Made by a program: the position numbers and the translations under genes. The notes beneath the pieces are model-generated. The model was not told where the DNA came from. It saw only the letters and a program-made list of their open reading frames with translations, and did no database searches. From Romanomermis culicivorax (Eukaryota > Nematoda > Enoplea > Mermithida > Mermithidae), in the NCBI GenBank assembly GCA_963922205.1, contig CAWUHX010000332.1, positions 124,001 through 188,000 on the forward strand: a stretch of DNA of 64,000 nt. The letters run 5' to 3'. This document shows, piece by piece, positions 505 through 58,965 of the stretch (positions within the stretch are counted from its first letter, which is position 1; every line of letters begins with the position of its first letter).

Positions 505-649
505 TATTTTTTAGATAAACAAAACAGAATACCGGCTGAAGTTACCATCCGAAAATTAATACAATTATTGAAAGAAAATAAATTTGTCAACGGCAGTCGC
601 GTTGATTATTATGATTTATAAGTTTTATTAGTTAATTATTTGATGATTA

Positions 650-3150: not shown

Positions 3151-3264
3151 CATATTAAATCATCCAGCTGTTCATTGTGCAACCTGCTTCACAGATACCA
3201 CTATGGATGACTCTCTGTCCTCGGATGCAGAAGTGTGTCTTGGCAATGCCATTAGCCTTACATC

Positions 3265-13600: not shown

Positions 13601-16600
13601 GACGAAGTTCGATCCTACGTTTTGTTCAACTATGCCCGCATAAATTACACATCGTCGGCACCATCCGGAGCTATAGGGGGACGCGGTGGACGCCAATCCG
13701 CTTTGGTAATGATGTTTACACGAAAAACTGATCTTGGTGTAAAGTTATGCAAATTTTTGTACTCATCTCAACGAGATCTATGGATTGATACCCATTTTGC
13801 CTATGCTAGCACTAAAAAGGAGGATTTTACAGGGCACACCCTAGGGCCACTCGGGAGTACGCCCCTACACCCCACACTTTACAGTATTTTACTTTACACT
13901 TTGTTGCCAGGTCGGCTTCAACGCTGGCAATGGCACTGGCTTCTTCGAATTGCCCTATTCGTCGCAAGGCGACTCATACAAATTGGTGTTGAACGGTGCC
14001 ACCGACACCCAAGGCCGTTGGTTGGCCCGCGTCGACGAATTGGTCCAATACGGCGGTTGTAGTAACAAAAGTTCCGGCAAATTGCAAATAGACCACGGGT
14101 CGGTCAACATGATCGGAGGCATGATGTTCAATGTGTCGGGACCGTGCTTCCGACCCAACGACTATATAACCATGGAAGTGGATGAGGAAATTTTCGATTG
14201 TGGCTATGTGAGCCCTATGCCCATGCCTGAGCCATAGCCAAGATCCAGGCCCTGGCCCTGGCCTAGCCCTGACCCAGCCTCGACCCTAACCCAAACCCTG
14301 ACCCCCACCCTGACCCTGACCCTGACCCTGACCCTGACCCTGACCCTGACCCTGACCCTGACTCTGACCCTGATCCTGACCCTGACCCTGACCCTGACCC
14401 TGACCTGGGCACGGGCCCTTATGCACAAAGTATGGATCCATGAAAATTTTTTCTAGGTGAACATGGTCAAGGCTCAATGCGTTATCCCATTCAATATGGT
14501 GTTCAAAACGGGCTTTGTTACCATACAAATAACGCAAGATGGCAGGAATTACGCTTGGTACAGGTCAATTTATATGTGTAAGCATTTCAGGAACAACACA
14601 TGTAAGAACTGTCCTCGCATGAGCATGCGCTCAATATCCTATCTTATATCATTACTAGGTTATAGCATGTGCTAAAGATCCCATCTTAAAACATTACTAT
14701 GTTATAGCACAGTAGTATACTAAACGTATAGACTTGCATTATCATGTGCTCAAGATCCTATCTTATAACATTACTATGTTATAGCACAGTAGTATACTAA
14801 ACATATAGACTTGCATGATCATGTCCTCAATATCCTATCTTATATCATTACTATTTAAAAGCATGTGCTCATGATCCCATCTTACAACATTACTATGTTA
14901 TAACATACTTGCATGATCATGTGCTGAAGATCCTATCTTATATCATCACTATGCTATAGCATGTGTCCAAGATCTCATTTTACAACATTACTATGTTATA
15001 ACATACTTGCATGATCATGTGCTGAAGACCCTATCTTATATCATTACTATGCTATAGCATGTGTCCAAGATCTCATTTTACAACATTACTATGTTATAAC
15101 ATACTTGCATGATCACGTGCTGAAGATCCTATCTTATATCATTACTATGCTATAGCATGTGTCCAAGATCTCATTTTACAACATTACTATGTTATAACAT
15201 ACTTGCGTGATTATGCACTCAAGATCCTATCTAATATCATTACTATTTTATAGCATGTGCTCATGATCCCATCTTACAACATTACTATGTCATAACATAC
15301 TTGTGTGATTATGCACTCAAGATCCTATCTAATATCATTACTATTTTATAGCATGTGCTCATGATCCCATCTTACAACGTTACGATGTTATAACATACTT
15401 GCATGATCACGTGCTGAAGATCCTATCTTATATCATTACTATGCTATAGCATGTGTCCAAGATCTCATTTTACAACATTACTATGTTATAACATACTTGC
15501 GTGATTATGCACTCAAGTTCCTATCTAATATCATTAGTATATTAATGCATGTGTCGAAGATCCTATCTTACAACATTACTATGTTATAACATACTTGCAT
15601 GATCACGTGCTCAAGATCCTATCTTATAACATTATTATGTTATACCATGTATCCAAGATCCTATCTTACAACACTAATACGTTATAACATACTCGCATGA
15701 TCATGTGCTCAAGATCCTATCTTATATCATTACTATTTTAAAGCATATGCTCATGATCCCATCTTACAACATTACTATGTTATAACATACTTGCAAGATC
15801 ATGTGCTGAAGATCCTATCTTATATCATTACTATGCTATAACATGCGTCCAAGATCTCATTTTACAACATTACTATGTTATAACATACTTGCATGATTAT
15901 GCACTAGAGATCCTATCTTATATCATTAGTATGTTAATGCATGTGTCCAAGATCCTATCTTAAAACATTACTATGTTATAAGATACTTGCAAGATCATGT
16001 GCTCAAGATCCTATCTTATAACATTATACTATGTTACAACATGTGATCTCGCTAAAATATACATTTCATGGTTAGGCCCTCCATCACTGGGCACGATCGG
16101 CAGCGTCACTTTGGTGACTAAAGTGGACGAAATCAATCCCTGGCAACACGACTGGCATAGGGCCGAAATTTCCAACTTGAGCATCATTTGGTCGGCGAGC
16201 AATATTTCCAGTTTATCAAATTCGAAAATCGACATCAATTTATGGGGTTATTGGGAAGATGCGTTGGATAGAGATTTGATTAAAGTAGGCTTAGGCTTAG
16301 GCTTAGGCTTAGGCTTAGGCTTAGGCTTAGGCTTAGGCTTAGGCTTAGGCTTAGGCTTAGGCTTAGGCTTAGGCTTAGGCTTAGGCTTAGGCTTAGGCTT
16401 AGGCTTAGGCTTGGGCTTAGGCTTAGGCTTAGGCTTAGGCTTAGGCTTAGGCTTAGGCTTAGGCTTAGGCTTAGGCTTAGGCTTAGGCTTAGGCTTAGGC
16501 TTAGGCTTAGGCTTAGGCTCAGGCTAGAAATTTTCATTAAGTTTTCTTCAGATTGGAGCCATAGCCAAAGGTATTTCGAACACTGGCAAATATTGGTTCA

Positions 16601-19600
16601 ACCCTAATCAGGTACAAAAAACATGGATGTTGAAAGACTCATGGAAAAAATTTTGGGGCGGCGTTGTGCAGGTTCACGTCGCAGATAATACTGTAAAAGA
16701 TAGAGGAAGCAGGTATGTCCAATTTTGTACATAAATTTCCAATCAATCTGGGTTTACTGTAGCAAAAAGTAAACTGAGTGACCAACGGTCATTACAATGA
16801 CCAGTCAACAACAGTTGATCAGCAGCCCTAAAAACATATCTCATTTTTTAGGCTCTTCTGGTCTAAACCCGTACCATTCGGCTGGTATTTCCAAGACATA
16901 TGGCGCCAAACAATGGGCGACAATTGGGCCTTGAATTTATGTATCGAATGGTTCGAACAAGATGGTCGACGTTACAACTTCTACCGGGAGCTAGAGACGC
17001 CCCTGTCCTGCCCTTGTACGTTGGCTCAAGCGAGGGCCGACTTCGGTCGTTTCATGCCAGCACCAGAATGTGATATGAGCGGCGACGCTTCTTGCTATTA
17101 TACACGCGGCGCCCAACACTGCGTCTTGTCCGTAGGTTCTACGTAAGTCAGCCAATGGGATTATATGTGGGACCATATCCCATACATATGCATTGCCCAT
17201 GCTTAAGTTTGCCTATCCTTAAGTTTGCCTATGCTTAGGCATTGCTCATCCTTAAACATTGCCTATGGTTAAGCATTACCTATGCTTAACCATTGTCTAC
17301 CTTTAAGCACTGTGTATGCTTAATCATTGCACCAGCTCCAGCCCTGCCTGTGCCCAAGCATCACATCTGCTTCGACTTTGCATGTGCTTCAACATTGCTT
17401 GTGCTCAAGCTTTACTATTGGTTGAGTATCTTCTATGCTAAATCACTCTGTATACTTAAGCATTGCATATGTCTAAATATCACCCATGTTGCTTGAACAT
17501 TGCAAATGCTTCAGCATTCCATGTGCCTATCACTGCCTATACTTAAACATATGGCATATGCTTCAGCACTTCCTATGCTTAAACAAATGATGTATGCTTG
17601 AGCATTGCCTATGCTTGACCATGGCCTATGCTTGAGCGTTGACTATGCTTGAGCATTGCCCGTGCTGAATTGTTAGATATGCCTGAGCAATGTTTGCACA
17701 TACCATTGCAAGCCGGAGTTAAGTATTGACAATGTATAAGCGTTACATATGTCTAAAAATTATCTGTACTCCAGCAGTGTCTATGCTTAAGCATTGTCCA
17801 TGCTTAATCATTGTATATGCTTGAACATTATCCATGCGTGAACATCTCTTATAATGAAACGCAGTCTATGCTTAAGCAGTGCGTATGCCATGAATTTATG
17901 TATGCTTAAGTATTGCTTATGCTTAATCATTGTCTATGCTATAGCATTACTTATACTTGAGCATTGCCTATGTCTGAAAATTGTCTAGGGTTGAGAATTG
18001 CCTATGCTTGAGCGTGGTCCATGCTTAATAATTGTCTATGCTAAAACATTATCAATGTGCAAACATTTCTCATTATTGGGCACTGCCTATGCTTACGCAT
18101 TGCATATGCCTTAACTTTGAGTATGCTCAAGCATTGTCTATGCTAAAGCATTGCCTATGCTTGAGCATTGCCTATGCTTGAGCATTGCCTATGCTTGAGC
18201 ATTGCCTATGCTTGAGCATTGCCTATGCTTGAGCATTGCCTATGCTTAAGCATTGTGCATGCTTAATAGTTGCATGTGCTCAAGCAATGTTTGCACTTAA
18301 CCATTGTGAGCCCGACTAAAGTAAACTCAAGGTGTAGGCATTACCTATGCCTGAACACTGTCTATTGTATAGCATTGCCTATGCTTGAGCATTGCTTATG
18401 CTTGAGCATTGCCTATGCTTGAGCATTGCCTATGCCTGAGCCTTGCCTATGCTTGAGCATTGCTTATGCTTGAGCATTGCCTATGCTTGAGCATTGCTTA
18501 TGCTTGAGCATTGCCTATGCTTGAGCATTGCCTATGCTTGAGCATTGCCTATGCTTGAGCATTGCCTATGCTTGAGCATTTCCTATGCTTGAGCATTGCC
18601 TATGCTTGAGCATTGCCTATGCTTGAGCATTGCCTATGCTTGAGCATTGCCTATGCTTGAGTGTGGGTTATGCTCTAGCATTGCCTAGGTTATAGTGTTG
18701 CATGTCAGGCAACTATGGCTTACTATTTTAAGTATTGTCTATGTTTAAGGATGGTGTATGCTTAAGCATTTCCTATACTCAAGCATTGCTCATGCTCTGC
18801 TTAAGCATTGCATATACTTAAGCATTGTATATACTTAAGCATTGACTATGCTTAATCATAGCTTATGCATACGTCAAAGAATGGACAGTGTCCCGTAAGT
18901 GTTTCCAGCTTTCCATTGCATATCACACACTTTGTGGACTATTCAAATGCCTAGTAGCATATCTGTTGCTATGACCATCGGTTCAAGCCCTTCACCGAGC
19001 AAATTTTTTTTTGCTATCCAGGGTAGCTGGCGCCAGTCAAACGTGCTGCTACGATTTCAACGGCTGGCTCATCTTTAGCCAAGACTACGAATACCATCCC
19101 GACTACGTAAAGTACAGTTCGGCCGGCACGTCACATCGGGCGCACCCTTGGGGCGGCTACGTATTCAAAAAACCGCCCTACGTACCTTCCTGGTCCAATT
19201 TCCACAACGATTTACTGCCCTATGATGTTTGTTGCCGATGGGCGGGCCATTGCGAATTTTACTATTGGCGTCGAACGACCTCCGGTTGCCAGGATTATAA
19301 GCCACCGAGGCTCGGTAATCAGGGACAGTAGTTATAGGGGGTATAGGCTTAGGCTTAGGCTTAGGCTTAGCCTTAGGCTTAGGCTTAGGCTTAGGCTTAG
19401 GCTTAGGCTTAGGCTTAGGCTTAGGCTTAGGCTTAGGCTTAGGCTCAGGCTCAGGCTTAGGCTTAGGCTTAGGCTTAGGCTTAGGCTTAGGCTTAGGCTT
19501 AGGCTTAGGCTTAGGCTTAGGCTTAGGCTTAGGCTTAGGCTTAGGCTCAGGCTTAGGCTTAGGCTTAGGCTTAGGCTTAGGCTTAGGCTTAGGCTTAGGC

Positions 19601-22600
19601 TTAGGCTTAGGCTTAGGCTTAGGCTTAGGCTTAGGCTTAGACCTTGTCCGCAATTTTTGCATTTCAGCCACAGCCTATGGTCACGGCCATTTCATAACTT
19701 TCGACAATTTGAAGTATACATTCAACGGTCGAGGCCATTTCGTATTGACGTCGTTCAAGACGCCGTCACAAAATTTGAATATCCAAATTAGGATGGAACA
19801 GCCGCCTAGGACAGTATGTAAGTCGGAGAGGAAAATTTTGAGGTTAATATTTGATTTAAACTTGAAAATTGATGTTTCATTTTGAAAAAAGAAGTTACAA
19901 GCAGCTGGACTTTGAGGGGTCATGGGTTCGAACCCTGCAATTTCCAAATTTTTTTCTAGAATTTTTTCCCAAACAGCTCAACTGTGAGAAGCAAATGGTT
20001 CGAGCCCTTCAACAAGCAACTTTTTTCAAGTTGAATAATTGACCATTTGATTACTTTGCTCATTGGGGTCAACATTGAAAAGTGAAGGGTTCAAGACCCT
20101 CAATTCACATTTTTTTTATATTTGATAATTAACTTTTTTCAACCAGCTGGACTTGGAAAAGTCGTGGGTTCAAGACCTCCAATTCACAAATTTTTTTTTT
20201 TGATATTTGATCCTCAACTTTTTCAACCAGTTGGACTTTGAAAAGTCATGGGTTCGAGATCTTCAATTCACAATTTTTTTTTTCTAATTTTTGGTCATTA
20301 ACTTTTTTTAACTAGTTCGACTTTCAAAAGTCATGGGTTCTAGACCTTAAATTCACAAAAAACTTTTTGATATTTCATCATTAACTTTTTTTTCAACCAG
20401 TTGGACTTTCAAAAGTCATGGGTTCAAGACCTCCAATTCACAATTTTTTTTTTTTTTTGATTTCTGATCCTTAATTTTTCTCAAGCAGCTCAATATTGAA
20501 AAGTCATGGGTTCGAGACCTTCAATTCACAATTTTTTTTTTTTTGATTTCTGATCCTTAACTTTTTCTCAAGCAGCTCAATATTGAAAAGTCATGGGTTC
20601 GAGACCTTCAATTCACAATTTTTTTTTTTTTTGATTTCTGATCCTTAACTTTTTCTCAAGCGGCTCAACATTGAAAAGTCATGGGTTCGAGACCTTCAAT
20701 TCCCAAATTTTTTTTTTAATTTTTTTTTCCAGACAATACTGATGTACAAGCTACAGTAATAACTGGTGTAGCTGTACAAAACAACGATTCGTCATTTTTC
20801 CAATTTTTCGCTCGAAAACAACATCGTCGATGGCGTTACGCTTTAGATGTTTTGGTCGATGGCGCCGAATGGCATACCGATGATGTGAATAAAAAACAGT
20901 CACATTTCGTACGTGCCACGTTATTCAGCCCGCATTTAAACCGCAATCAATCGGATTTAACGCTATTGTTTCCTAGCGGAGTTGGGGTGCGGGTTTTAGA
21001 AATGGATGGGCATATGCAGGTCATTGTGGCCTTGCCTCCGGAATTCAACGAAACAGCAGTTGTGAGTAATTTGTAAAATTTAATAATTTAATAATTTAAT
21101 AATAAATTTAATAAATTAAATTTAATAAATTTAATTTGATTAAATTTGATTAAATTTGATTAAATTTTGTTGAATTTGGTTAAATTTAATAAATAAAATT
21201 TGGTTAAATTTAATTAAATTTGGTTTAATTTCATTGAATTTGATTAAATTCGGTTAATTTTGGCTCAATTTAATTAAATTTAATTAAAGTTGGTTAAATT
21301 TGAAAAAAATTGGTTAAATTTGATTTAATTTGATTGAATTTGATTAAATTTGATTAAATTTGATTCAATTTAATAAACTAAATTTGATCAAATTTAATAA
21401 ATTAAATTTGATTCAATTTGATTAAATTTAATAAACTAAATTTGATTAAATTTAATAAATTAAATTTGATTAAATTTAATAAATTAAATTTGATTAAGTT
21501 TGATTAAATTTGATTAAATTTTGTTAAATTTTGTTAAATTTTGTTAAATTTAATTAATAAAATTTGATTAAATTTAATGAATTAGATTTGATTAAATTTA
21601 ACTATTTAAATTTGATTAAATTTAATTATTTGAATTTGATTTAATTTAATAAATTAAAATTTGATTAAATTTGATCAAATTTAGTTAAATTTAGTTAAAT
21701 TTGATTAAATTTTGTTAAATTTTGTTAATTTTGGTTAAATTCAATAAATCAAATTTGATTAAATTTAATGAATTAGATTTGATTGAATTTAACTATCTAA
21801 ATTTGATTAAATTTAATTATTTAAATTTGATTAAATTTAATTATTTAAATTTGATTCAATTTAATAAATTAAATTTGATTAAATTTGATTGAATTTAGTT
21901 AAATTTGATTAAATTTGATTAAATGTTGTTAAATTTTGTCGAATTTAGTTAAATTTAATAAATAAAATTTGATTAAATTTAATGAATTAGATTTGATTAA
22001 ATTTAACTATTTGAATTTGATTAAATTTAATTTTTTAAATTTGATTAAATTTAATAAATTAAATTTGATTCAATTTAATAAAATAAATTTGATTAAATTT
22101 GATTAAATTTAGTTGAAATTGATTAAATTTGCTTAAATTTGATTAAATTTGATTGAATTTAATAAATTGAATTCAATAAATTAAGTTTCATAAATTAAAT
22201 TTAATAAATTAGATTTGAAAAAAAATTTAATAAATTAAATTTAATAAATTCAATTTAATTAATTAAAATTGATTAAATTTAATAAATTTAATTTGATTAA
22301 ATTTAATGTGATTAAATTTAATAAATTAAATTTGATTAAATTTATTAAATTAAATTTGATTAAATTTTATAAATTAAATTTGATTAAATTTTATAAATTG
22401 AATTTGATTAAATTCAATAAATTGAATTTGATTAAATTTAATAAATTAAATTTGATTAAATTTCATAAATTAAATTTGACTAAATTTGATTAAATTTGAT
22501 TAAATTTTGTTAAATTTTGTTAAATTTGATTAAATTTTGTTAAATTTTGTTAAATTTGGTTAAATTTGGTTAATTTTAATTAAATTTAATAAATTAAAAT

Positions 22601-37600: not shown

Positions 37601-40600
37601 AGTATACTCTACAGTAATTCGGAATAAAAATTTGTACAGTAAACTACAGTAACACAATGAACAAAATACAGTAAGCGGTAAGCAAGGTAATTTATCAAAG
37701 TAAGCTACAGTATACTTCACAGTAATTCAGACTGAAATTTTGTACCAGTAAACTACAGTAACCAATAAACAAAATACAGTAACCAGTAAGCAAGATAATT
37801 TATCACAGTAAGCTAATAGTATACTCTACAGTAATTCGAACCAAAATTTTGTACAGTAAACTACAGTAATAAATTTTTCGAATCATTTTGTTTTCTGCAT
37901 TACAAGACTCTATTACAGTAAGCTACAGTAAACCGAAACTAATTTATTTACCTGACGATCCTTGAAATGTTTACAATAATAGAAAGTACTGTATGTACAT
38001 TTTTTCCAACTTTCAATTTGCATAATTTTATGAAAAATAATTTTATTCGAGTAAAATTTATGCAAATTTTTCAACTTCCATAAAAGTTATGCAAATTTTT
38101 TCAATTTCAATAAAAAATTATGCAAAATTTTTTTATTTTCATAAAAATTATGCAAATTTTTTCAATTTCCATAAAAATTGTGCAAATTTTTCAATTTCCA
38201 TGAAAATTATGCAAATTTTTTTTTTCCAAAAAAGATATGCAAATTTTTCATTTTCCATAAAAATCATGCAAATTTTTCAATTTTTCATAAAAATTATGCA
38301 AATTTTTCATTTTGCATAATTTTTATGCAAATTTAGGGTTAGCCGATAATAAAAAATTTCGATATATTATTCGATCCGGTTCATCGACCGATTTATTTTC
38401 CGAATTTATTCCGCCGCGGGAATTTCGTACCGAATTTCGACCCATGGAAAGAAGATAACGCCAATCTTCTAATAGAATCTTTGGCCTTTTCGAGGGATGA
38501 TGAAGTTCACGTGAGCTACAGTATACTATACAGTAATTGTTGGTAAAATTTTGTACAGTAAAACTACAGTAAATCACTGTAATCTACAGTAATCTACAGC
38601 AAACTAGAATAATCTACAGTAAACTTCAGTAAACTACAGTAATCTACAGTAACATACAGTAGTCTACAGTAATATAGAGTAGACTACAAGAATCTACAGT
38701 AATTTACAGTAACCTTTAGCAATCTTCAGTAAACTACAGTAATCTACAGTGAACTACAGTTATCTACAGGAAACTACAGTAATCCACAGTGAAACCGCAG
38801 TAATCTACAATAAACAAAAGTAATCTACAGTAAACTACAGTAATTCTTCAACTTAATCATGTGCATGAAAATCTATTTAAAGTTACAAAAATAGCAAAAA
38901 AAGTTATTTATAATATACAATGCAGTAATTTCATCAATAACTTTGTACAAAAAACTACAGTAATCTACTGTAAAAAACAGTAATCTACAGTAAAACTACA
39001 ATAATCTACCCCAAGCTGAAGTAATCTACAGTAATTTTCAGTGAACTACAGTAATCTACAGTAAAATTTTTATTTAAAGTGAACTACAGTAATCCACAGT
39101 AAACTACAGTAATCTACAGTAATCTTCAATTTAATCATGTGCATGAGAATCTATTTAAAAGTTACAGTAACAGAAAGTAGAGTTATCTACAGTATGCAAT
39201 ACAGTAATTCCAGCTAAAGTTAGGTACAGTAATCTACAGTAATCTTCAATTTAATCATGTGCATGAGAGTCTATTAAAAGTTACAGTAAAAGGAAATAGA
39301 GTTATCTACAGTATGCGATACAGTAATTTCAGCTAAAGTTAGGTACAGTAAACTACAGTAATTAATTGTCAGAAAACAGTAACCGGTCGGAAGGGGTAAC
39401 TTATTACAGTAAGCTACAGTATACTCTACAGTAATTCTGACTAAAACTTTGTACAGTAAACTAAGGTAACTTATTACAGTAAGCTACAGTATACTCTACA
39501 GTAATTCCGACTAAAACTTTGTACAGTAAACTACAGTTACCAATAATCAAAATACACTAACCGGTAACCAAGGTAATTTATCACAGTAAGCTACAGTACA
39601 CTCTACAGTAATTCAGACGAAAATTTTGTACAGTAAACAACAGTAACCAATAATCAAAATACAGTAACCGGTAAGCAAGGTAGTTTATCACAGTAAGCTA
39701 CAGTATACTCTACAGTAATTCAGACTACAATTTTGTACAGTAAACTACAGTAACCAATAATCAAAATACAGTAACCAGTAAGCAAGATAATTTATCACAG
39801 TAAGCTACAGTATACTCTACAGTAATTCGGACTAAAATTTTGTACAGTAATATACAGTAATAAATTTTTCGAATCATGTTATTTTCTGCATTACAGGACT
39901 CTATTACAGTAAGCTACAGTAATCCGAAACTAATTTATGTACCTGACGATCCTTGAAATGTTACAATAATAGAAAGTACTGTATAGTACAGTAACCGCGC
40001 CATTTTTGTAGGTGGTATGCCAGAACGTTTATTCTTGCATGTTCGACTATTTGGTCAGTTCTAGGAGGCACGACGCTTTGAACACCCTGTCGGCCGAAAA
40101 AAAATTCGAAGGCCTCAAAGCCAACGGAGAAATAAGGAGTGAGGTTTATACATTCCATTGACCCCAAATCCCGGGAGTCATGGGAACCGGAGTTGGCTTT
40201 GCCTTAGGCTTAGGCTTAGGCTTAGGCTTAGGCTTAGGCTTAGGCTTAGGCTTAGGCTTAGGCTTCGGCTTCGGCTTAGGCTTAGGCTTATGCTTAGGCT
40301 TAGGCTTAGGCTTAGGCTTAGGCTTAGGCTTAGTCTTAGGCTTAGGCTTAGGCTCAGGCTTAGGCTTAGGCTTAGGCTTAGGCTTAGGCTTAGGCTTAGG
40401 CTTAGGCTTCGGCTTCGGCTTAGGCTTAGGCTTATGCTTAGGCTTAGGCTTAGGCTTAGGCTTAGGCTTAGGGCTCTAGGCTTTAGGCTTAGGCTCAGGC
40501 TTAGGCTTAGGCTTAGGCTTAGGCTTCGGCTTAGGCTTAGGCTTATGCTTAGGCTTAGGCTTAGGCTTAGGCTTAGGCTTAGGCTTAGGCTTAGTCTTAG

Positions 40601-42744
40601 GCTTAGGCTTAGGCTTAGGCTTAGGCTTAGGCTTAGGCTTAGGCTTAGGCTTGGGCTCAGGCTTAGGCTTAGGCTTGGGCTTAGGCTTAGGCTTAGGCTT
40701 AGGCTTAGGCTTAGGCTTAGGCGTAGGCTTAGGCTTAGGCTTAGGCTTAGGCTTAGGCTTGGGCTTAGGCTTAGGCTTAGGCTTATGCTTAGGCTTAGGC
40801 TTAGGCTTAGGCTTAGGCTTAGGCTTAGTCTTAGGCTTAGGCTTAGGCTTAGGCTTATGCTTAGGCTTGGGCTTAGGCTTAGGCTTAGGCTTAGGCTTTA
40901 GGCTTAGGCTTAGGCTTAGGCTTAGGCTTAGGCTTAGGCTTAGGCGTAGGCTTAGGCTTAGGCTTAGGCTTAGGCTTAGGCTTGGGCTTAGGCTTAGGCT
41001 TAGGCTTCATCTTCGGCTTAGGCTTAGGCTTATGCTTAGGCTTAGGCTTAGGCTTAGGCTTAGGCTTAGGCTTAGTCTTAGGCTTAGGCTTAGGCTTAGG
41101 CTTAGGCTTAGGCTTAGGCTTAGGCTTAGGCTTGGGCTCAGGCTTAGGCTTAGGCTTGGGCTTAGGCTTAGGCTTAGGCTTAGGCTTAGGCTTAGGCTTA
41201 GGCGTAGGCTTAGGCTTAGGCTTAGGCTTAGGCTTAGGCTTGGGCTTAGGCTTAGGCTTAGGCTTAGGCTTGGGCTTAGGCTTAGGCTTAGGCTTAGGCT
41301 TGGGCTTAGGCTTAGGCTTAGGCTTAGGCTCAGGCTTAGGCTTAGGCTTAGGCTTAGGCTTAGGCTTAGGCTTAGGCTTAGGCTTAGGCTTCGGCTTCGG
41401 CTTAGGCTTAGGCTTAGGCTTAGGCTTAGGCTTAGTCTTAGGCTTAGGCTTAGGCTTAGGCTTAGGCTTAGGCTTAGGCTTAGGCTTGGGCTTAGGCTTA
41501 GGCTTAGGCTTAGGCTTAGGCTTAGGCTTAGGCTTAGGCTTCGGCTTCGGCTTAGGCTTAGGCTTATGCTTAGGCTTAGGCTTAGGCTTAGGCTTAGGCT
41601 TAGGCTTAGTCTTAGGCTTAGGCTTAGGCTTAGGCTTATGCTTAGGCTTAGGCTTAGGCTTAGGCTTAGGCTTAGGCTTAGGCTTAGGCTTAGGCTTAGG
41701 CTTCGGCTTCGGCTTAGGCTTAGGCTTATGCTTAGGCTTAGGCTTAGGCTTAGGCTTAGGCTTAGGCTTAGGCTTAGGCGTAGGCTTAGGCTTAGGCTTA
41801 GGCTTAGGCTTAGGCTTGGGCTTAGGCTTAGGCTTAGGCTTGGGCTTAGGCTTAGGCTTAGGCTTAGGCTTAGGCTTGGGCTTAGGCTTAGGCTTAGGCT
41901 TAGGCTCAGGCTTAGGCTTAGGCTTAGGCTTAGGCTTAGGCTTAGGCTTAATCTTAGGCTTAGGCTTAGGCTTAGGCTTAGGCTTAGGCTTAGGCTTAGG
42001 CGTAGGCTTAGGCTTAGGCTTAGGCTTAGGCTTAGGCTTGGGCTTAGGCTTAGGCTTAGGCTTGGGCTTAGGCTTAGGCTTAGGCTTAGGCTTAGGCTTA
42101 GGCTTAGGCTTAGGCTTAGGCTTAGGCTTAGGCTTAGGCGTAGGCTTAGGCTTAGGCTTAGGCTTAGGCTTAGGCTTGGGCTTAGGCTTAGGCTTAGGCT
42201 TGGGCTTAGGCTTAGGCTTAGGCTTAGGCTTAGGCTTGGGCTTAGGCTTAGGCTTAGGCTTAGGCTCAGGCTTAGGCTTAGGCTTAGGCTTAGGCTTAGG
42301 CTTAGGCTTAATCTTAGGCTTAGGCTTAGGCTTAGGCTTAGGCAATGGGACCACATGGTTTTGGGTTGATTGGACCAAAGTTTGAGTCAAAGGAACCATT
42401 CCTTAGATATGTGACCATGATTGGGGTCAATGGAACCACGGCTTGGGTCAATGGACCGAGGGTTTGTGGTCAAAGGAACCATGGTTTGGGTCGAAGGATT
42501 CCACTCCCTAAAATTCTTCGGTCCCAAGTCCCGGAACCAGGGTCTCAATTTTTCTTTTTTTAAGCCGTCAGTTGCGGCCCGTTACAAAAAAACGACGGCG
42601 TCATCAAAATACCGTTAGGCAATAATTATTTGGAGGGGGTTACTGTAACTTTCGCTTGCAAAATCGACTACTTCCTGCACGGCGAGCAACAAAGGCGCTG
42701 CGTAAACGGAACCTGGACGCCCGGCTGGTGGGCCTGGTGCAGGA
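4373..42744 (+). CDS. mesh-like: Mesh/SUSD2-like NIDO-AMOP-vWD-sushi adhesion protein (17 exons seen, 3' end missing)
   Basis: Joined exons: 4373-4607, 4669-4799, 5013-5335, 13097-13232, 13571-13705, 13911-14207, 14457-14577, 16076-16284, 16552-16712, 16852-17142, 19022-19314, 19668-19817, 20733-21061, 31644-31838, 38343-38510, 40012-40138, 42565-42744. Phases agree at every junction, giving 3481 nt (1160 codons plus 1 nt). Domains in order: signal peptide (1-21), NIDO (about 100-320), IPT/E-set-like (about 365-460), AMOP (about 610-770), vWD (about 780-1060) and sushi (cysteines 1104, 1132, 1146, 1159). This order is that of insect Mesh and mammalian SUSD2, type I membrane proteins; Mesh organises smooth septate junctions in gut epithelia. 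A gut or epithelial surface role here is inference. The transmembrane exon should lie beyond the N gap. Exons are GC-balanced while introns are AT-rich or tandem repeats. Confidence 0.9.
4669..4799 (+). CDS. mesh-like: Mesh-like exon 2: start of NIDO region
   Basis: Residues 79-122. It encodes [16 protein letters not shown] and then [12 protein letters not shown], which resembles the N-terminal side of NIDO proteins. It follows a 61-bp intron whose only phase-compatible acceptor is TAAAG, an unusual AAG-type site. The donor is a strong GTAAGT. The exon is sure; its 5' boundary is less so. Confidence 0.75.
5013..5335 (+). CDS. mesh-like: Mesh-like exon 3: NIDO
   Basis: Residues 123-230. Starts after CCCATAG in phase 0 with [19 protein letters not shown], then [16 protein letters not shown] and a WYRVV strand, typical of the NIDO core. 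The end in phase 2 (ACG AG, donor GTTTGG) is set by the match to exon 4's phase rather than by donor strength. The following 7.76 kb intron is pure AT-rich repeat. Confidence 0.85.
5336..13096. repeat. Intron 3: AAAATTTTAGAATTTTG repeat field
   Basis: About 7.7 kb of degenerate near-palindromic AT-rich units (GAAAATTTTAGAATTTTG and relatives). Four copies of a landmark GGGATTGGGGAAATTTCC occur near 6522, 8239, 9471 and 10396. The block from about 6230 to 6890 is repeated nearly identically at about 7947-8607, a recent internal duplication. The last 120 bp switch to a TTACTGTAC repeat before the acceptor. No exon is seen in it. Confidence 0.9.
13097..13232 (+). CDS. mesh-like: Mesh-like exon 4: NIDO
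   Basis: Residues 230-275. Acceptor AATTCAG, then [20 protein letters not shown] and TWERMGFGG, the conserved NIDO segment ending in VKKW. It restores the arginine codon split with exon 3. Donor GTGAGT, phase 0. Confidence 0.9.
13240..13545. repeat. Intron 4: 16-bp CTACAGTATGACTTAT tandem array
   Basis: About 18 copies of CTACAGTATGACTTAT, with TTTTCT and CATCT variants, fill the 338-bp intron almost to both splice sites. Confidence 0.95.
13571..13705 (+). CDS. mesh-like: Mesh-like exon 5: end of NIDO
   Basis: Residues 276-320. After TTTTAG it reads [20 protein letters not shown], the NTFQ-V-TTD-R-FA-FNY motif of NIDO domains, then a Gly-rich stretch ending QSAL. Exactly 45 codons; donor GTAATG. 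Confidence 0.92.
13911..14207 (+). CDS. mesh-like: Mesh-like exon 6: NIDO end and IPT/E-set-like start
   Basis: Residues 321-419. [15 protein letters not shown] is the C-terminal hallmark of NIDO, and [14 protein letters not shown] follows. The segment [18 protein letters not shown] resembles the GG-x-x-x-x-x-x-GPCF turn of IPT/TIG folds. Acceptor TTGCCAG, donor GTGAGC, 99 codons in phase 0. Confidence 0.92.
14270..14408. repeat. Intron 6: CCCTGA hexamer array
   Basis: About 20 copies of CCCTGA occupy the middle of a 249-bp intron. Frames through it code only for dipeptide repeats and are artefacts. Confidence 0.95.
14457..14577 (+). CDS. mesh-like: Mesh-like exon 7: IPT/E-set-like end
   Basis: Residues 420-460. 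[20 protein letters not shown] and then [15 protein letters not shown], the closing strands of an IPT-like fold. Ends in phase 1 (T, donor GTAAGC) and completes a cysteine codon with exon 8. Confidence 0.87.
14590..16050. repeat. Intron 7: 98-bp satellite
   Basis: Roughly 15 copies of a unit containing TACTATGTTATAACATACTT, GCATGATCATGTGCT and AAGATCCTATCTTA. The landmark GCATGATCAT recurs at 14911, 15009 and 15107, giving a 98-bp period. Each unit holds two short dyads (GTTATAAC, GCATGATCATGTGC). Confidence 0.9.
16076..16284 (+). CDS. mesh-like: Mesh-like exon 8: inter-domain beta region before AMOP
   Basis: Residues 460-529. [20 protein letters not shown], then [10 protein letters not shown] and [17 protein letters not shown], matching the IxWxxxN...LxGY pattern between the E-set and AMOP of Mesh proteins. 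The donor is GTAGGC, which is itself the first hexamer of the telomere-like array filling intron 8. Confidence 0.87.
16285..16530 (+). repeat. Intron 8: interstitial telomere-type TTAGGC array
   Basis: About 40 nearly perfect TTAGGC units, G-rich strand on the coding strand. The array begins exactly at the splice donor (GTAGGC), so the intron is almost entirely telomere-type repeat. A 27-bp tail ending TTTTCTTCAG follows. Confidence 0.97.
16552..16712 (+). CDS. mesh-like: Mesh-like exon 9: linker before AMOP
   Basis: Residues 530-582. [20 protein letters not shown] and [20 protein letters not shown]: the NTG-x-Y-x-F-x-P pattern is typical of this region in Mesh relatives. Acceptor TTCTTCAG, donor GTATGT, ends in phase 2. 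Confidence 0.88.
16852..17142 (+). CDS. mesh-like: Mesh-like exon 10: AMOP domain, first half
   Basis: Residues 583-679. The leading LFWSKP is followed by LCIEWFEQD and [20 protein letters not shown], the PCPC-L-QA-x-D-GRF signature of AMOP domains, with further cysteines in [12 protein letters not shown] and HCVLS. The preceding intron is only 139 bp and lacks tandem repeats. Donor GTAAGT, phase 2. Confidence 0.93.
17160..18870. repeat. Intron 10: 17-bp TGCTTGAGCATTGCCTA array
   Basis: Degenerate at the edges and nearly perfect at 18120-18260 and 18370-18670, where CTTGAGCATTGCCTATG repeats with a 17-bp period. It is the reverse complement of the unit upstream of the gene (1480-3150). Confidence 0.93.
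19022..19314 (+). CDS. mesh-like: Mesh-like exon 11: AMOP domain, second half
   Basis: Residues 680-777. [15 protein letters not shown], a long insertion with HPWGGYVF, and [20 protein letters not shown] with [11 protein letters not shown]: the QCCYD, CC-W and RP-x-x-x-C-x-Y-x-PP features of AMOP. Acceptor TATCCAG, donor GTAATC. A TTAGGC array starts 27 bp downstream. Confidence 0.93.
19342..19641 (+). repeat. Intron 11: interstitial telomere-type TTAGGC array
   Basis: About 50 TTAGGC units with rare TCAGGC variants, same orientation as intron 8. It lies between the exon 11 donor and the TTTGCATTTCAG acceptor of exon 12. Long dipeptide ORFs across it are artefacts. Confidence 0.97.
19668..19817 (+). 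CDS. mesh-like: Mesh-like exon 12: vWD domain start
   Basis: Residues 778-827. [20 protein letters not shown] and GHFVLTSF, the YGDPHFITFDGxxYTFNGxGEF start of vWD domains. The usual Asp of GDPH is replaced (HGHF). Acceptor ATTTCAG directly after the TTAGGC array; donor GTAAGT, phase 1. Confidence 0.93.
19895..20732 (+). repeat. Intron 12: 87-bp tRNA-derived tandem repeat with B boxes
   Basis: About nine units. Each has an A-box-like segment (CAGTTGGACTTTG or CAGCTCAATATTG), a near-perfect pol III B box (GGTTCGAGACC) about 30 bp later, and a run of 7-12 T. The landmark GTCATGGG at about 20503 and 20590 gives the 87-bp period. Inferred to be amplified from a tRNA-like or SINE fragment. Confidence 0.75.
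20733..21061 (+). CDS. mesh-like: Mesh-like exon 13: vWD domain middle
   Basis: Residues 828-937. [49 protein letters not shown]: the typical vWD strands between the HFITFD and GLLG motifs. Acceptor TTCCAG, donor GTGAGT, phase 0. A 10.6 kb AT-rich intron follows. Confidence 0.9.
21070..25870. repeat. Intron 13, first half: ATTAAATTTG decamer field
   Basis: Thousands of bases of a 10-bp unit (ATTAAATTTG) with G/C point variants. Some blocks of several hundred bases are duplicated: the stretch ending near 23750 (from about 23400) recurs at about 23830-24170. No exon is seen. Confidence 0.92.
25870..28300. repeat. Intron 13, middle: mixed AAATTAAATTT low-complexity DNA
   Basis: AT-only low-complexity sequence with shifting units (AAATTAAATTTGAATAAA, AAATCAAAATTGAATT). 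No recognisable exon or element. Confidence 0.8.
28300..28800. repeat. Intron 13: 15-bp AAATTAAATTAGATC array
   Basis: About 33 copies of a 15-bp unit. Because 15 is a multiple of three, the unit makes an open frame repeating DQIKL (28313-28807); there is no start context or domain, and it is not a gene. Confidence 0.93.
28800..31640. repeat. Intron 13, end: about 270-bp higher-order AT repeat
   Basis: About eight units, with landmark GATTCTAATCGAACT or a close variant near 29003, 29280, 29552, 29824, 30114, 30372, 30633 and 31053. Each unit also carries TTCTATGGAATTGAGTC. A perfect AAATT/AATTA run follows up to the exon 14 acceptor. Confidence 0.88.
31644..31838 (+). CDS. mesh-like: Mesh-like exon 14: vWD domain, GLLG-x-YN-x-DPNDD motif
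   Basis: Residues 938-1002. The vWD hallmark [17 protein letters not shown] is at about 960-975 and is preceded by a Cys-containing strand. Acceptor TTTCCAG, 65 codons. The donor choice CAA|GTGTAA is fixed by the phase-0 start of exon 15; CAAGT|GTAAAC would give a stop. Confidence 0.9.
31870..32370. repeat. Intron 14: TTAATTATGCAAATTTT array
   Basis: About 40-bp double units of TTTTTAATTATGCAAA and TTTTTAATTTATGCAAA in tandem. A related TTTCCATAAAAATTATGCAAA array lies at 38040-38335, so the 108-bp satellite is bracketed by this motif. Confidence 0.9.
32475..37870. repeat. Intron 14: 108-bp CTACAGTA satellite
   Basis: About 50 tandem units of roughly 108 bp (range about 106-112), each containing CTACAGTAACCAATAAACAA, GTAAGCGGTAAGCAAGGTAA and CTACAGTATACTCTACAG. 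Variants (AGCGG/ACCGG, AAACA/AATCA) are mixed, indicating local homogenisation. No coding sense. Unit-length heterogeneity increases toward the right end. Confidence 0.95.
38000..38338. repeat. Intron 14, 3' end: TTTCCATAAAAATTATGCAAA array
   Basis: About nine units of roughly 30-35 bp up to the exon 15 acceptor. The frame at 38089-38319 is a shadow of the repeat. Confidence 0.85.
38343..38510 (+). CDS. mesh-like: Mesh-like exon 15: vWD domain C-terminal part
   Basis: Residues 1003-1058. Only the acceptor GGGTTAG keeps the frame open: [20 protein letters not shown], then [19 protein letters not shown] ending RDDEVH. This fits the segment of Mesh/SUSD2 between GLLG and the final C-FDY. Exactly 56 codons; donor GTGAGC. 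No long ORF shows this exon on the plus strand, so it is easily missed. Confidence 0.85.
38515..39990. repeat. Intron 15: CTACAGTAAT repeats and more 108-bp satellite
   Basis: Short CTACAGTAAT/CTACAGTAAA units (38520-39360) are followed by about four to five units of the same 108-bp satellite as intron 14. A 130-bp terminal segment (39852-39990) is shared with the end of the intron 14 array (37861-37992). Confidence 0.9.
40012..40138 (+). CDS. mesh-like: Mesh-like exon 16: end of vWD region, C-x-x-x-x-x-C-x-FDY
   Basis: Residues 1059-1100. [17 protein letters not shown] and [20 protein letters not shown], matching the C-x-D-x-x-C-x-FDY-x-x-T-x-R-x-x-x-AL-T segment before sushi in this family. 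Acceptor TTTGTAG, donor GTGAGG, phase 1. Confidence 0.88.
40190..42343 (+). repeat. Intron 16: 2.15-kb interstitial telomere-type TTAGGC array
   Basis: About 358 hexamers, all with the G-rich strand on the coding strand. Variant hexamers (TTCGGC, TTATGC, TTAGTC, TTGGGC, GTAGGC, TCAGGC) mark higher-order blocks. The GTAGGC at about 41779 and the variant CTTAATCTTAGG at about 41949 both recur 360 bp later. The huge frames on both strands (up to 572 codons of LG/RL/KP/SL repeats) are hexamer artefacts. Confidence 0.97.
42345..42560. repeat. Intron 16, 3' end: degenerate TTGGGTCAATGGAACCA repeats
   Basis: About five units of 30-40 bp built on GGGTCAATGGAACCA between the TTAGGC array and the sushi exon. 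A related GACCCC/GGGAACC text sits just after exon 16 (40160-40190), on the other side of the array. Confidence 0.6.
42565..42744 (+). CDS. mesh-like: Mesh-like exon 17: sushi (CCP) domain
   Basis: Residues 1101-1160. [47 protein letters not shown]: the four sushi cysteines (C-C-C-C) and the terminal W-C. The phase-1 join with exon 16 requires an AAG acceptor (TTTTTTTAAG, then CCGTCAG); the CAG seven bases later gives the wrong frame. Donor GTAAGG, phase 1. Downstream exons are not in the window. Confidence 0.88.
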
Positions 42745-45850: not shown

Positions 45851-45952
45851 TAATTTTAAGTTTCATTAATAAAATAAAAATGATTATTTCAATTCACGCA
45901 CTTGTCTTAACAAGAATGTTTCGAGAAAAAATGTTTTTCATATTATATACAG

Positions 45953-46405
45953 TGACACGTAAATGGGTAAACGCGTTGCCATTGTAACCATCACCAAACA
46001 CTGTTCGAAAAATAATGCTGGACCGGGATTCAAACTGGGCTGTGACTATAGTGCAGCATTCTTCCGATTGAACTACTGAGCCAGTGTTGCGATAGTTACG
46101 AAGGGGTGATGTACGGCCATGCGACACGTGACATTCCCCCCCTTGAAAGAAGGATGACCTCGTCCATTGAAGATGCAGGTTCTGCGGGCCACCAATGTGG
46201 GACCAATCCAAGCCTCGCCATGACACGTAAATGGGTAAACGCGTTGCCATTGTAACCACCGCCAAACACTGTTCGAAAAATAATGCTCAACCGTGATTCA
46301 AACCCGGGTCTCTGTGACTATAGTGCAGCATTCTTCCGATTGAACTACCGAGCCAGTGTTGCAATAGTTAGGAAGGGGTGTTGTATGGCCCTGCGACATG
46401 TGACA
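45953..46405 (-). mobile_element. TRIM family A, copy 1 (tRNA-containing LTRs)
   Basis: Complete miniature LTR element on the minus strand: 5' LTR 46221-46405 (TGTCACATGTCG...ACGTGTCA), internal 87 bp at 46134-46220 beginning TGGCGAGGCTTGG (PBS-like) and ending AAGGGGGGGAA (polypurine tract), 3' LTR 45953-46133. It is flanked by the 4-bp direct repeat ACAG (45949-45952 and 46406-46409), a target-site duplication. No coding capacity, so it must be mobilised in trans. Each LTR holds a decayed tRNA-like region. Frames across it are shadows. Confidence 0.85.
46284..46355 (-). ncRNA. tRNA-like pol III unit in TRIM A copy 1, 5' LTR (decayed)
   Basis: The A-box-like TAGTTCAATCGG position and a mutated B box (GGTTTGAATCA) are recognisable by alignment with copy 2. 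It is followed by ATTATTTTT. C-to-T changes at the B box make it probably inactive. A second relic is in the 3' LTR at 46016-46083, with a 4-nt deletion. Confidence 0.55.
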
Positions 46406-46649
46406 ACAGAATATTGGGAAAAATGTTGGATAATGCGACTCTGCGGCTAAAAAGTATGGAACAGCGAGAATTTATGGTGAAATAAGCATGTATTGCATGG
46501 GTAGAACTCAATAAATAAAATTATGTGGACAAGTGACTATTGATAAAAAATCGTGCTGATAGAGTTTTAATATGGCAAGTCCTTCTAAAAATCCATTTCA
46601 AGGCCATTATTGACCAAAAAATGAACTTTTCATTGATGACTCAGCTATA

Positions 46650-47687: not shown

Positions 47688-48068
47688 TGTTGTATGGTAA
47701 CATACAACATTCCACCCGTAGGATTGATGTTGTAGCCAATCCATTGGTCCTTAACCCGGTCATTTTTGTTGAGCCCTGGTCCGGATGGTTATGCCTACCC
47801 TGACATTGGCCAATGGTGGGACAGCTACAGTGACACCCAGGAAGCCCTTCAACACTGGTGACTGTACCAGGGGGCCCCCTGTTGCTCCAAGGGGGGAGGG
47901 ATGTTGTATGGTAACATACAACATTCCACCCATAGGATTGATGTTGTAGCCAATCCACGGGTTCCGAACCCAGTCATTTTTGTTGAGCCCTGGTCGGGAT
48001 GGTTACACCTACCCCAACATTGGCCAATGGTGGGACAGCTACGGCGCCACCCAGGAAGCCCTTCAACA
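47688..48068 (+). mobile_element. TRIM family C, complete element
   Basis: Two LTRs of identical length (47688-47854 and 47902-48068, 167 bp each), starting TGTTGTATGGTAACATACAA and ending CCCTTCAACA. They are separated by a 47-bp interior that starts CTGGTGACTG and ends in the polypurine tract AAGGGGGGAGGGA. A perfect 4-bp target-site duplication AACT flanks it (47684-47687 and 48069-48072). The LTR contains the palindrome CATTGGCCAATG, a hairpin at its 5' end and a degenerate GGGTTCCGAACCC plus T-run. Too short for any protein. Confidence 0.88.
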
Positions 48069-50703: not shown

Positions 50704-50965
50704 CTAACTTCGATTAGGGCATATAAGTTGGCAAACAAAGAATAAAGTTGTATTTTCGCATGGTGAGCTTCGCCACATTGCGTCATCAAGAAAATTCATG
50801 GTGACGCATTGCTTTGTGGAATCATTGAAATCGGGTTCACCGGGAAACCACTTTGAATAGCTTATCGATGCATTCTTGAACATATAACCTTTAGTGAGTT
50901 TACTACGGTACACGTTTAGCAGTATATCCCAATTTAGGTAACTTGGTGCTGCAAGGCGTGTAGCA
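50704..50965 (-). CDS. C-type lectin domain exon (C-terminal half)
   Basis: Minus strand, after a CTTTACTTCAG acceptor: YLNWDILLNVYRSK, then SYSKWFPGEPDFNDSTKQCV and FLDDAMWRSSPCENTTLFFV, ending CQLICPNRS-stop. The W-x-x-GEP-x-F, C-x-x-M, W-x-x-x-x-C and FVCQ pattern is that of a C-type lectin domain. The stop at 50704 may be the real end, or the GTTAGT at 50708 may be a donor. It is probably part of a secreted or membrane lectin gene with the exon at 52235-52522. TRIM A copy 2 is inserted just upstream of its acceptor. Confidence 0.7.
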
Positions 50966-51038
50966 CTGAAGTAAAGAAGCATGATGACTGTCACGTGTCG
51001 CACGGCCGTACATCATCCCTTCGTAACAATCGCAACAC

Positions 51039-51110
51039 TGGCTCAGTAGTTCAATCGGAAGAACGCTGCACTATAGTCACAGAGACCTGGGTTCGAATCC
51101 CGGTCGAGCA
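51039..51110 (+). ncRNA. tRNA-like pol III unit in TRIM A 5' LTR
   Basis: A box TAGTTCAATCGG (51047-51058), B box GGTTCGAATCC (51090-51100) and TTTTT terminator (51114-51118). It has a perfect D stem (GTTC/GAAC) and T stem (CTGGG/CCCGG); the anticodon stem has two mismatches and the acceptor stem pairs poorly. This is a tRNA-derived promoter unit, not a functional tRNA gene. Confidence 0.75.
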
Positions 51111-51308
51111 TTATTTTTCAAACAGTGTTTGGCGATGGTTACGATGGCAACGTGCTTACCCATTACGTGTCATGGCGAGGCTTGGATTGGTCCCATATTG
51201 GTGGGCCGCAGAACCTGCATCTTCAACTGACGAGGTCGTCCTTCTTTCAAGGGGGGAATGTCATGTGTCGCACGGCCGTACATCACCCCTTCGTAACAAT
51301 CGCAGCAC

Positions 51309-51380
51309 TGGATTGGTGGTTCAATCGGAAGAACGCTGCACTACAGTCACAGAGACCCGGGTTCAAATCCCGGTCGAGCA
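51309..51380 (+). ncRNA. tRNA-like pol III unit in TRIM A 3' LTR
   Basis: A-box-like TGGTTCAATCGG (51317-51328), B box GGTTCAAATCC (51360-51370), T-run 51384-51388. Same layout as in the 5' LTR, with a locally rewritten 5' edge (GATTGGTGG). Confidence 0.7.
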
Positions 51381-51447
51381 TTATTTTTCGAACAGTGTTT
51401 GGCTATGGTTATGATGGCAACGCGTTTACCCGTTACGTGTCAATGAC

Positions 51448-55146: not shown

Positions 55147-55294
55147 CAGGGTAGGCTTTGGCTTAGGCAAACACTTAGGCTTAGATTTAGGCTTAGGCTT
55201 AGCCTTAGGCGTAGGCTTAGGCTTAGGCTTAGGCTTAGGCTTAGGCTTAGGCTTAGGCTTAGGCTTAGGCTTAGGCTTGGGCTTAGGCTTAGGC
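55147..55294 (+). repeat. Interstitial TTAGGC block
   Basis: About 24 hexamers with edge variants (TTTGGC, AACACTTAGGC), again with the TTAGGC strand on plus. Not in a recognised gene. The RLRL/SLSL frames are artefacts. Confidence 0.93.
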
Positions 55295-55299
55295 TATCA

Positions 55300-56956: not shown

Positions 56957-57344
56957 TGTTGAGGCAACCTATTTCTGTTACTCCGGGCTTCAGTAAAAGT
57001 TAGGCTCATTCCGGGACTTGAACCCGAGACCTTGCGGCTATCAACCATATGCTCTAACCAACTTAACCAACTGAGCAACGGGAAAGGCACTCTCTTTTCG
57101 CAACAATTCGTAGTTGATGTGGCTGCTTTGGCCACTCCCAACACCCCTCCACTGTCGAGTTTGAGGGACCATCAAGGGCCACCAGTGTTGAGGCATCCTA
57201 TCCATTCGGGGCTTCAGTAAAAGTTAGGCTCAGTCCCACACTTGAACCCGGCACCTTGCAGCTATCGTCGGCATGCTCTAACCAACTGAGCCAACTTTTT
57301 GCAACAATTCGTAGTTGATGTGGTTGCTTTGGCTACTCTCAACA
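56957..57344 (-). mobile_element. TRIM family B (tRNA-containing LTRs)
   Basis: Two LTR-like copies, 56957-57143 (187 bp) and 57186-57344 (159 bp, internally deleted). On plus they start TGTTGAGG and end CCCAACA or CTCAACA. The interior is 42 bp. On the minus strand the interior begins CTGGTGGCCC (PBS-like after one base) and ends GTGGAGGGG (purine tract), so the element points minus. Target-site duplication AAAG: 56953-56956 and 57345-57348. The LTRs contain a tRNA-like unit on the same minus strand. Confidence 0.82.
57230..57295 (-). ncRNA. tRNA-like pol III unit in TRIM B LTR
   Basis: Minus strand: TGGCTCAGTTGG (A box, 57282-57293) with TTAGAGCATG, and GGGTTCAAGTG (B box region, 57238-57248). 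The other LTR has GGTTCAAGTCC at 57014-57024 and a duplicated GTTGGTTAAGTTGGTTAGAGC region. D-arm and T-arm sequences are close to ordinary tRNAs. Confidence 0.65.
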
Positions 57345-58631: not shown

Positions 58632-58965
58632 CAATTTGAACATGACCCGAGAATTGAGCACCGGACAATTGAGCACCGACAATTGAGCGCCAGACAACTG
58701 AGGGCCGACAACTGAGCGCCGTGGCTTAGGCTTAGGCTTATGTTTATGCTTAGGCTTAGGCTTAGGCTTAGGCTTAGGCTTAGGCCTCAGTAAATGAAAA
58801 AAATGCTCAATTATAATGCATTAAATAGTCGTTGCTCAGTTGTCGGTGCTCAAATGTCTCGCGCTCAGTTGTCACGGCGCTCAGTTGTCATGGCCCTCAA
58901 TTGTCTGGCGCTCAGTTGTTGGCGCTCAATTGTCGGCGCTCAATTGTCGGTGCACCCAATTTGAA
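58632..58965. mobile_element. Foldback element with CAATTG-unit arms and a TTAGGC interior
   Basis: Left arm (58640-58720): five tandem GACAA(T/C)TGAG(C/G)(G/A)CC units. Interior: TTAGGC block (58722-58786) and about 45 bp of unique DNA. Right arm (58830-58955): about nine units in reverse complement (GGCGCTCAATTGTC). The outer start ATGACCCGAGAATTGAG is shared with 60755, so this is a family. Arms of short tandem repeats in opposite orientation are the hallmark of foldback elements. Confidence 0.75.
58722..58786 (+). repeat. TTAGGC block inside the foldback element
   Basis: About ten hexamers with TTATGT and TTATGC variants, TTAGGC on plus, exactly between the two inverted arms. Confidence 0.92.

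Follow-up and report, generated by a model that had tools for sequence, protein, structure and literature searches.

A multi-copy family of miniature long terminal repeat retrotransposons with a tRNA-type RNA polymerase III unit in each repeat, found in a genome of nematode appearance

A stretch of 64,000 nucleotides (contig CAWUHX010000332.1, positions 124,001 to 188,000 of the forward strand; hereafter the window) contains at positions 50989-51442 a short element that an earlier note, made from the sequence alone, had described as a miniature long terminal repeat (LTR) retrotransposon with a tRNA-type RNA polymerase III (pol III) unit inside each LTR. The element is 454 bp long and consists of an LTR of 184 bp, an interior of 86 bp and a second LTR of 184 bp (Table 1). 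Its LTRs are identical at 168 of 184 positions and have TG...CA termini, and the interior is bordered by a primer-binding site (PBS) and a polypurine tract (PPT); all of these parts had been placed correctly in the note. The sequence ATGAC on both flanks forms a perfect 5-bp target-site duplication. Within each LTR an A box, a B box and a run of five T residues (T5) follow one another with the spacing of a tRNA gene, and the D stem and T stem pair, as had also been described, with mismatches at the two inner pairs of the anticodon stem. When 5601 bases were searched with the Rfam tRNA model, both units scored above its gathering score of 29 bits (E of 0.00018 and 0.00031). ARAGORN called a tRNA in the unit of the 5' LTR only, not in that of the 3' LTR. 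The open reading frames that cross the element continue through both LTRs and both tRNA units, a course that speaks against a gene. Adjoining the element, at 50707-51012 on the minus strand, is a stretch that may be a C-type lectin exon (its Pfam Lectin_C match, with E of 0.0058, falls short of the cut-off), so the insertion may be intronic.

Table 1. Positions in the window of the element at 50989-51442, its parts, and the other short LTR elements discussed
Feature	Positions	Strand	Details
5' target-site duplication	50984-50988	.	ATGAC
5' LTR	50989-51172	+	184 bp, TGTCAC...GTGTCA
tRNA-like unit of 5' LTR	51040-51111	+	72 bases; Rfam tRNA 34.3 bits; ARAGORN: Tyr, anticodon ATA
A box, 5' LTR	51047-51058	+	
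B box, 5' LTR	51090-51100	+	
T5 run, 5' LTR	51114-51118	+	predicted pol III terminator
Interior	51173-51258	+	86 bp
PBS	51173-51182	+	complementary over 10 nt to the 3' end (CCA included) of genomic tRNA-Arg-TCG
PPT	51249-51258	+	AAGGGGGGAA
3' LTR	51259-51442	+	184 bp
tRNA-like unit of 3' LTR	51310-51381	+	72 bases; Rfam tRNA 33.5 bits
A box, 3' LTR	51317-51328	+	
B box, 3' LTR	51360-51370	+	
T5 run, 3' LTR	51384-51388	+	predicted pol III terminator
3' target-site duplication	51443-51447	.	ATGAC
Second full copy, family 1	45953-46405	-	88.8% identical to the element at 50989-51442
Family 2, unrelated TRIM with a tRNA unit in each LTR	56957-57344	-	LTRs 57186-57344 and 56957-57143; interior 57144-57185; duplication CTTT (4 bp)
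Family 3, TRIM without a tRNA unit	47688-48068	+	LTRs 47688-47854 and 47902-48068; duplication AACT (4 bp); internal comparison

Further copies were sought in the assembly to which the window belongs (359,112,060 bases in 595 contigs). A genome search, as the note had proposed, uncovered a multi-copy family (family 1) with LTR-interior-LTR copies, target-site duplications and places with a single LTR. At least 46 matches were listed in the family 1 search, which gave 437 first-look candidates, 40 of them scored. Thirty loci were fetched, of which 26 have two LTRs. A perfect 4-bp duplication flanks 23 of these 26 and a 5-bp duplication flanks one, the window copy, so that ATGAC, although real, is atypical in its length for a family that makes 4 bp. 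A script found no duplication at the other two loci; at one of them (L017) the alignment had ended two bases early, and CAGT stands on both sides once those bases are included (seen by eye and not counted). By comparison, equal 4-mers were seen in 15 of 1794 cases at control positions chosen by mirroring. A TG start and a CA end are present at 24 of the 26 two-LTR loci. Copies ending at other positions without duplications had been named in the note as something that would count against the element; with 4 bp at 23 of 26 loci, the outcome favored it. The second full copy in the window is flanked by the 4-bp duplication CTGT (on the plus strand ACAG, at 45949-45952 and 46406-46409), and its inclusion gives 24 of 27 two-LTR copies with a 4-bp duplication; its PPT is the same tract as AAGGGGGGAA plus one G. 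A search with the LTR alone listed 40 places, comprising 29 with two LTRs (one partial), 9 where one LTR was listed and 2 arrays of three or four LTRs. The array of four family 1 LTRs (C313) has a single 4-bp duplication, ATCA, around the whole, and no duplication was found around another array (L027), the 5' end of which is worn. A scan of viral contigs with two LTR/PBS patterns gave no match.

The conservation of the putative promoter was examined in 61 family 1 LTRs from 29 loci (28 fetched loci and the second window copy), with L018 and L030 left out because they represent the same array as L013. The A-box pattern fits 45 of the 61 LTRs, the B-box pattern fits 48 in its strict and 56 in its loose form, and T5 is present in 57; a stretch of at least four T residues occurs once, and once only, in 57 of 61. 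None of the 61 LTRs contains AATAAA, ATTAAA or a TATA-like motif. At 11 further loci of the 30 fetched, Rfam reported a tRNA in every LTR (22 of 22, 31.2-42.7 bits). LTRs lacking the boxes, the other outcome that had been named as unfavorable, were not the rule, most of the examined LTRs having kept them. In the majority unit, 6 of 7 acceptor pairs, 4 of 4 D-stem pairs, 5 of 5 T-stem pairs and 3 of 5 anticodon-stem pairs are formed. The four bases of both anticodon-stem mismatches are invariant across the 61 LTRs (counted by hand), which indicates that what has been preserved is a promoter and not a tRNA. The anticodon is ATA in the family and ACA in the 3' LTR of the window copy. Rfam scans at the gathering threshold returned only tRNA, and no 5S rRNA-derived promoter was found in the LTRs. 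Structure, copies and duplications together confirm that the element at 50989-51442 belongs to a real, multi-copy family of terminal-repeat retrotransposons in miniature (TRIMs) in which each LTR contains a tRNA-type pol III unit, as had been proposed.

The window also contains a copy, though decayed, of an unrelated TRIM family (family 2) that has the same arrangement. Its LTRs begin with TGTTG and end with CAACA, its interior is 42 bp long, and in the window it matches family 1 at one place alone, a 16-base segment at the B box. The genome search listed at least 86 matches, with 40 of 1181 candidates scored. Thirty loci were examined; 27 remain once L058, L059 and L060 are set aside as duplicates of the L035 and L047 arrays. 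A 4-bp duplication was found at 19 of the 27 loci. Tandem arrays of this family have a period of about 229, and among 11 arrays of at least three LTRs, 7 have one duplication around the entire array. The A box, the B box and the T run were each found in 81 of 84 LTRs (repeated arrays included), the A-box and T-run patterns having been fitted to this family, and AATAAA/ATTAAA and a TATA-like motif were absent from all 84. In 66 of 73 LTRs, chosen for a recognizable D loop and B box, the unit forms a near-perfect cloverleaf, with each of the 21 pairs kept in 55 to 66 of the 66 LTRs; the anticodon is GGT in 61 of 66, and position 33 is a C in 63 of 66. Rfam detected a tRNA in 15 of 16 full LTRs from seven loci (45.9-57.7 bits), and the one that it missed, from L038, was found by ARAGORN. 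No convincing primer emerged for this family: the B box combined with AAGGGCCA (one mismatch allowed) gave 18 matches, 16 of which are one repeated kind missing an end base, and a looser pattern gave one match.

A third short element in the window (family 3) was used as an internal comparison. At least 56 matches were listed among 1276 first-look candidates, and a 4-bp duplication flanks 14 of 18 loci (of 20, with L062 and L075 omitted as arrays). As a candidate third pol III family it was rejected: the strict B box occurs in none of 52 LTRs on either strand, and Rfam found no tRNA in nine of the 20 loci. The tRNA unit is therefore special to two families and not a property of every short LTR element here. 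By eye, an array at 3497-4016 (tandem repeats, period 198) appears related to family 3.

The interior of family 1 begins with TGGCGAGGCT directly behind the 5' LTR. To identify the primer, the whole genome was searched for a pattern joining a B box to the PBS complement (one mismatch tolerated). This search resulted in four places, comprising three tRNA-Arg-TCG genes (71-73 bits) and one 3' fragment with CCA. Self-priming, by pairing of the PBS with the LTR, was rejected, as the longest match is 4 nt and occurs in one LTR. The 15-nt complement of the tRNA-Arg end is present at 48 genomic sites, one of them the 3' fragment mentioned above (L081), versus none for the reversed control. Twelve of these 48 sites were examined: in 10 of the 12 the match extends to 18 nt, upstream sequence is common to the loci of four groups (L085/L091, L087/L088, L092/L094 and L090/L093/L095; judged by eye on the 12 sites), and CA often stands a few bases before the site, also by eye, as expected of LTR ends. 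The 18-nt matches and shared upstream sequence indicate that repeats with a tRNA-Arg PBS exist in this genome. The fragment L081 (C2:1266173-1266194) is a genomic 3' part of tRNA-Arg with CCA, as if a mature tRNA had been reverse-transcribed.

The note had taken this kind of element to be undescribed. That belief was mistaken, since Helenus, as described by Kojima in 2024 (PMC10886601), is defined by the same design: TRIMs with a tRNA-like sequence in their LTRs, grouped with other pol III TRIMs as TRIMp3. Compared by published description, family 1 shares with Helenus an A/B-box tRNA unit in both LTRs, a PBS and a PPT, and like Helenus it is short and non-coding, the elements here measuring 454 and about 416 bp against a published range of 311-1263 bp. 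Animal members make 4-bp duplications (PMC10886601), as does family 1, the window copy itself having 5 bp. Several families per genome, with solo LTRs and tandem arrays for some of them, are reported for Helenus (PMC10886601); several families, arrays and units that are mostly not functional tRNAs are likewise found here. Transfer RNA-Arg is among the primers of wasp Helenus families, and animal Helenus is considered to be mobilized by Gypsy LTR retrotransposons (PMC10886601). According to the same account, pol III transcription is unproven for published Helenus too. Hosts reported in that paper are fungi, plants and six animal phyla, with Nematoda not among the six in its account, and its main text has no occurrence of "Nematode" or "Caenorhabditis". 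Unlike the published hosts, the genome examined here has nematode-type TTAGGC arrays.

Other known elements share parts of this design. Cassandra, a plant TRIM, also has a pol III promoter in the LTR and forms tandem arrays (PMC7215508), but its promoter is of the 5S type rather than the tRNA type; its RNA is described as running from the 5S unit of the 5' LTR to that of the 3' LTR (PMC10886601). Ajax, a nemertean TRIM, has the TRIMp3 design but a partial, 5S-derived unit and 5-bp duplications (PMC10886601). Ordinary animal TRIMs from an ant (PMC3532108), a bivalve (PMC6934838) and Echinococcus (PMC4558846) have LTRs and fall in the same size class, with no tRNA unit reported in the available text of these papers; family 3 is of this ordinary kind. 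TRIMs have been annotated in the nematode Meloidogyne incognita, with no mention of a tRNA unit in the available text (PMC8685519), and a 2026 meeting report mentions Helenus without using the word "nematode" in its accessible part. No nematode Helenus was found in open PMC text, Repbase, supplementary tables and subscription papers lying outside that search. Family 1 is a further member of the Helenus kind, probably from a host phylum new to the published list.

Taking these observations together, we consider it highly probable that the element is a Helenus-type TRIM that is transcribed by pol III from its LTR unit, primed by tRNA-Arg and mobilized by a partner element. Pol III transcription of family 1 is a step that we infer from the sequence. 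Pol III would start in the 5' LTR shortly before the tRNA unit, at about LTR position 45, and some transcripts would read through the T5 run of the 5' LTR and stop at that of the 3' LTR (LTR position 126-130). The resulting RNA would be roughly 355 nt long with a tRNA unit at both ends, so that the unit could serve as the R region, with LTR positions 1 to about 45 acting as U3 and 131-184 as U5. tRNA-Arg(UCG) would prime reverse transcription at the PBS, and the purine tract would prime the second strand. An autonomous LTR retrotransposon, of Ty3/gypsy type by analogy with animal Helenus, would supply all enzymes, and the borrowed integrase would make the 4-bp duplication. Transcripts ending at the first T5 run, about 80 nt long, would be by-products.

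Several results weigh against this account. The T5 run in the 5' LTR should halt pol III before the interior is reached, so that read-through is required. The tRNA unit of family 1 is not clearly better conserved than the LTR part behind it, the mean non-majority fraction being 0.034 within the unit against 0.035 in the part behind and 0.058 in the part before it; in family 2 the value in the unit (0.034) lies between those in front (0.025) and behind (0.041). When three units were folded by energy alone, they did not surpass shuffled sequences (z of -0.95, -0.47 and 0.15); the case for a tRNA unit is carried by the Rfam covariance scores. Of the two units in the second window copy, one scored 27.6 bits, below the gathering score, and the other, which has a 4-base deletion, was not listed by Rfam; ARAGORN called neither. 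Most of the examined family 1 copies appear not to be recent, because the identity within LTR pairs is 91.3 to 99.5% (a difference of 0.5-8.7%), with one young copy, L012, at 99.5%. With regard to priming, the match between the PBS and tRNA-Arg ends after 10 nt, CCA included. No autonomous partner with the same termini was established among the 12 of 48 PBS sites examined. A 5-kb stretch at one of them (L085) contains a Ty3 capsid frame (1748-3763, minus strand, E of 1.7e-7) that lies on the opposite strand to the tRNA-Arg PBS (601-615, plus strand), and two frames of the 1.4 kb beside another such site gave no match to Pfam.

The conservation values would also suit a TRIM transcribed by RNA polymerase II, in which the tRNA-like sequence is carried along passively, as a passenger that stems from an earlier insertion of a tRNA or a short interspersed nuclear element (SINE) in the LTR, given that in both families the unit exceeds other LTR parts in conservation by little, if at all. 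The abundance of family 3 points the same way, since it implies that a tRNA unit is no prerequisite for the spread of TRIMs in this genome. A passenger would not, however, readily account for the A box, B box and terminator run being kept in most of the 61 family 1 LTRs, for the lack of a polyadenylation signal or TATA-like motif in the 61 and 84 LTRs of families 1 and 2, or for two unrelated families sharing an arrangement in which the terminator run stands directly behind the unit. We regard this explanation as quite unlikely. The near-complete cloverleaves of family 2, at 45.9-57.7 bits in the 15 LTRs listed, raise the question of whether the unit yields a functional host small RNA, either a tRNA or a fragment, such that the element spreads tRNA genes. 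The two fixed anticodon-stem mismatches and the ATA or ACA anticodon of family 1, the replacement of T by C at position 33 of family 2 (63 of 66 LTRs), and the published judgment that most Helenus units are unlikely to be functional tRNAs (PMC10886601) all argue otherwise and make such a role very improbable.

Two tandem tRNA pseudogenes or SINEs might mimic a pair of LTRs, and both the tRNA spacing of the units and the SINE-like size would agree with that. The 184-bp repeats, however, reach about 50 and 60 bp past the tRNA unit, a PBS and a PPT lie between them, TG/CA termini are found at 24 of 26 two-LTR loci and 4-bp duplications at 23 of 26, and 9 of 40 places have a single listed LTR. The element also differs from a tRNA-derived SINE, which has a tRNA head, a body and a tail and no LTRs, PBS or PPT, and we give this possibility almost no credence. 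Within the Helenus-type reading, it can be asked how the arrays formed. Successive pol III units could give rise to multimers of RNA or cDNA that would insert in a single event, and two unrelated Helenus families, differing in their LTRs and in the type of their tRNA-like units, might then have arisen in a probably nematode lineage, new to the published Helenus hosts, with their arrays inserted as ready-made multimers. This scenario is doubtful; a single 4-bp duplication around arrays of 3-5 LTRs, as observed in both families, fits one-step multimer insertion and later unequal crossing-over alike.

Arrays of TTAGGC, the telomere repeat in most nematodes (PMC9071541), occur in the window at 16286-16525, 19344-19640, 40195-42343, 55152-55295 and 58723-58785, one of them being over 2 kb long, and on this evidence the host is likely a nematode. 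The word "nematode" in the earlier note fits the arrays. The canonical SL1 leader (up to 1 mismatch) has no match in the 359-Mb assembly. We take this absence to make a typical chromadorean nematode doubtful, with an enoplean nematode or another phylum being possible. The results extend the Helenus kind to a genome of nematode appearance, and the presence of two unrelated families with tRNA units beside a TRIM without one offers a natural comparison on the role of the pol III promoter in spread. Counts of tRNA genes in such genomes may be inflated, because scans recognize the tested LTR units as tRNAs and candidate copies of the families number in the hundreds. Should the host prove to be a nematode, the promoter so far inferred for Helenus could be tested with small-RNA data and pol III occupancy. 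Elsewhere in the window, positions 13845-19328 on the plus strand contain protein frames of animal type, with strong AMOP halves, a nidogen-like stretch just under the cut-off and tandem repeats in between; the AMOP and nidogen-like frames are consistent with an animal host.
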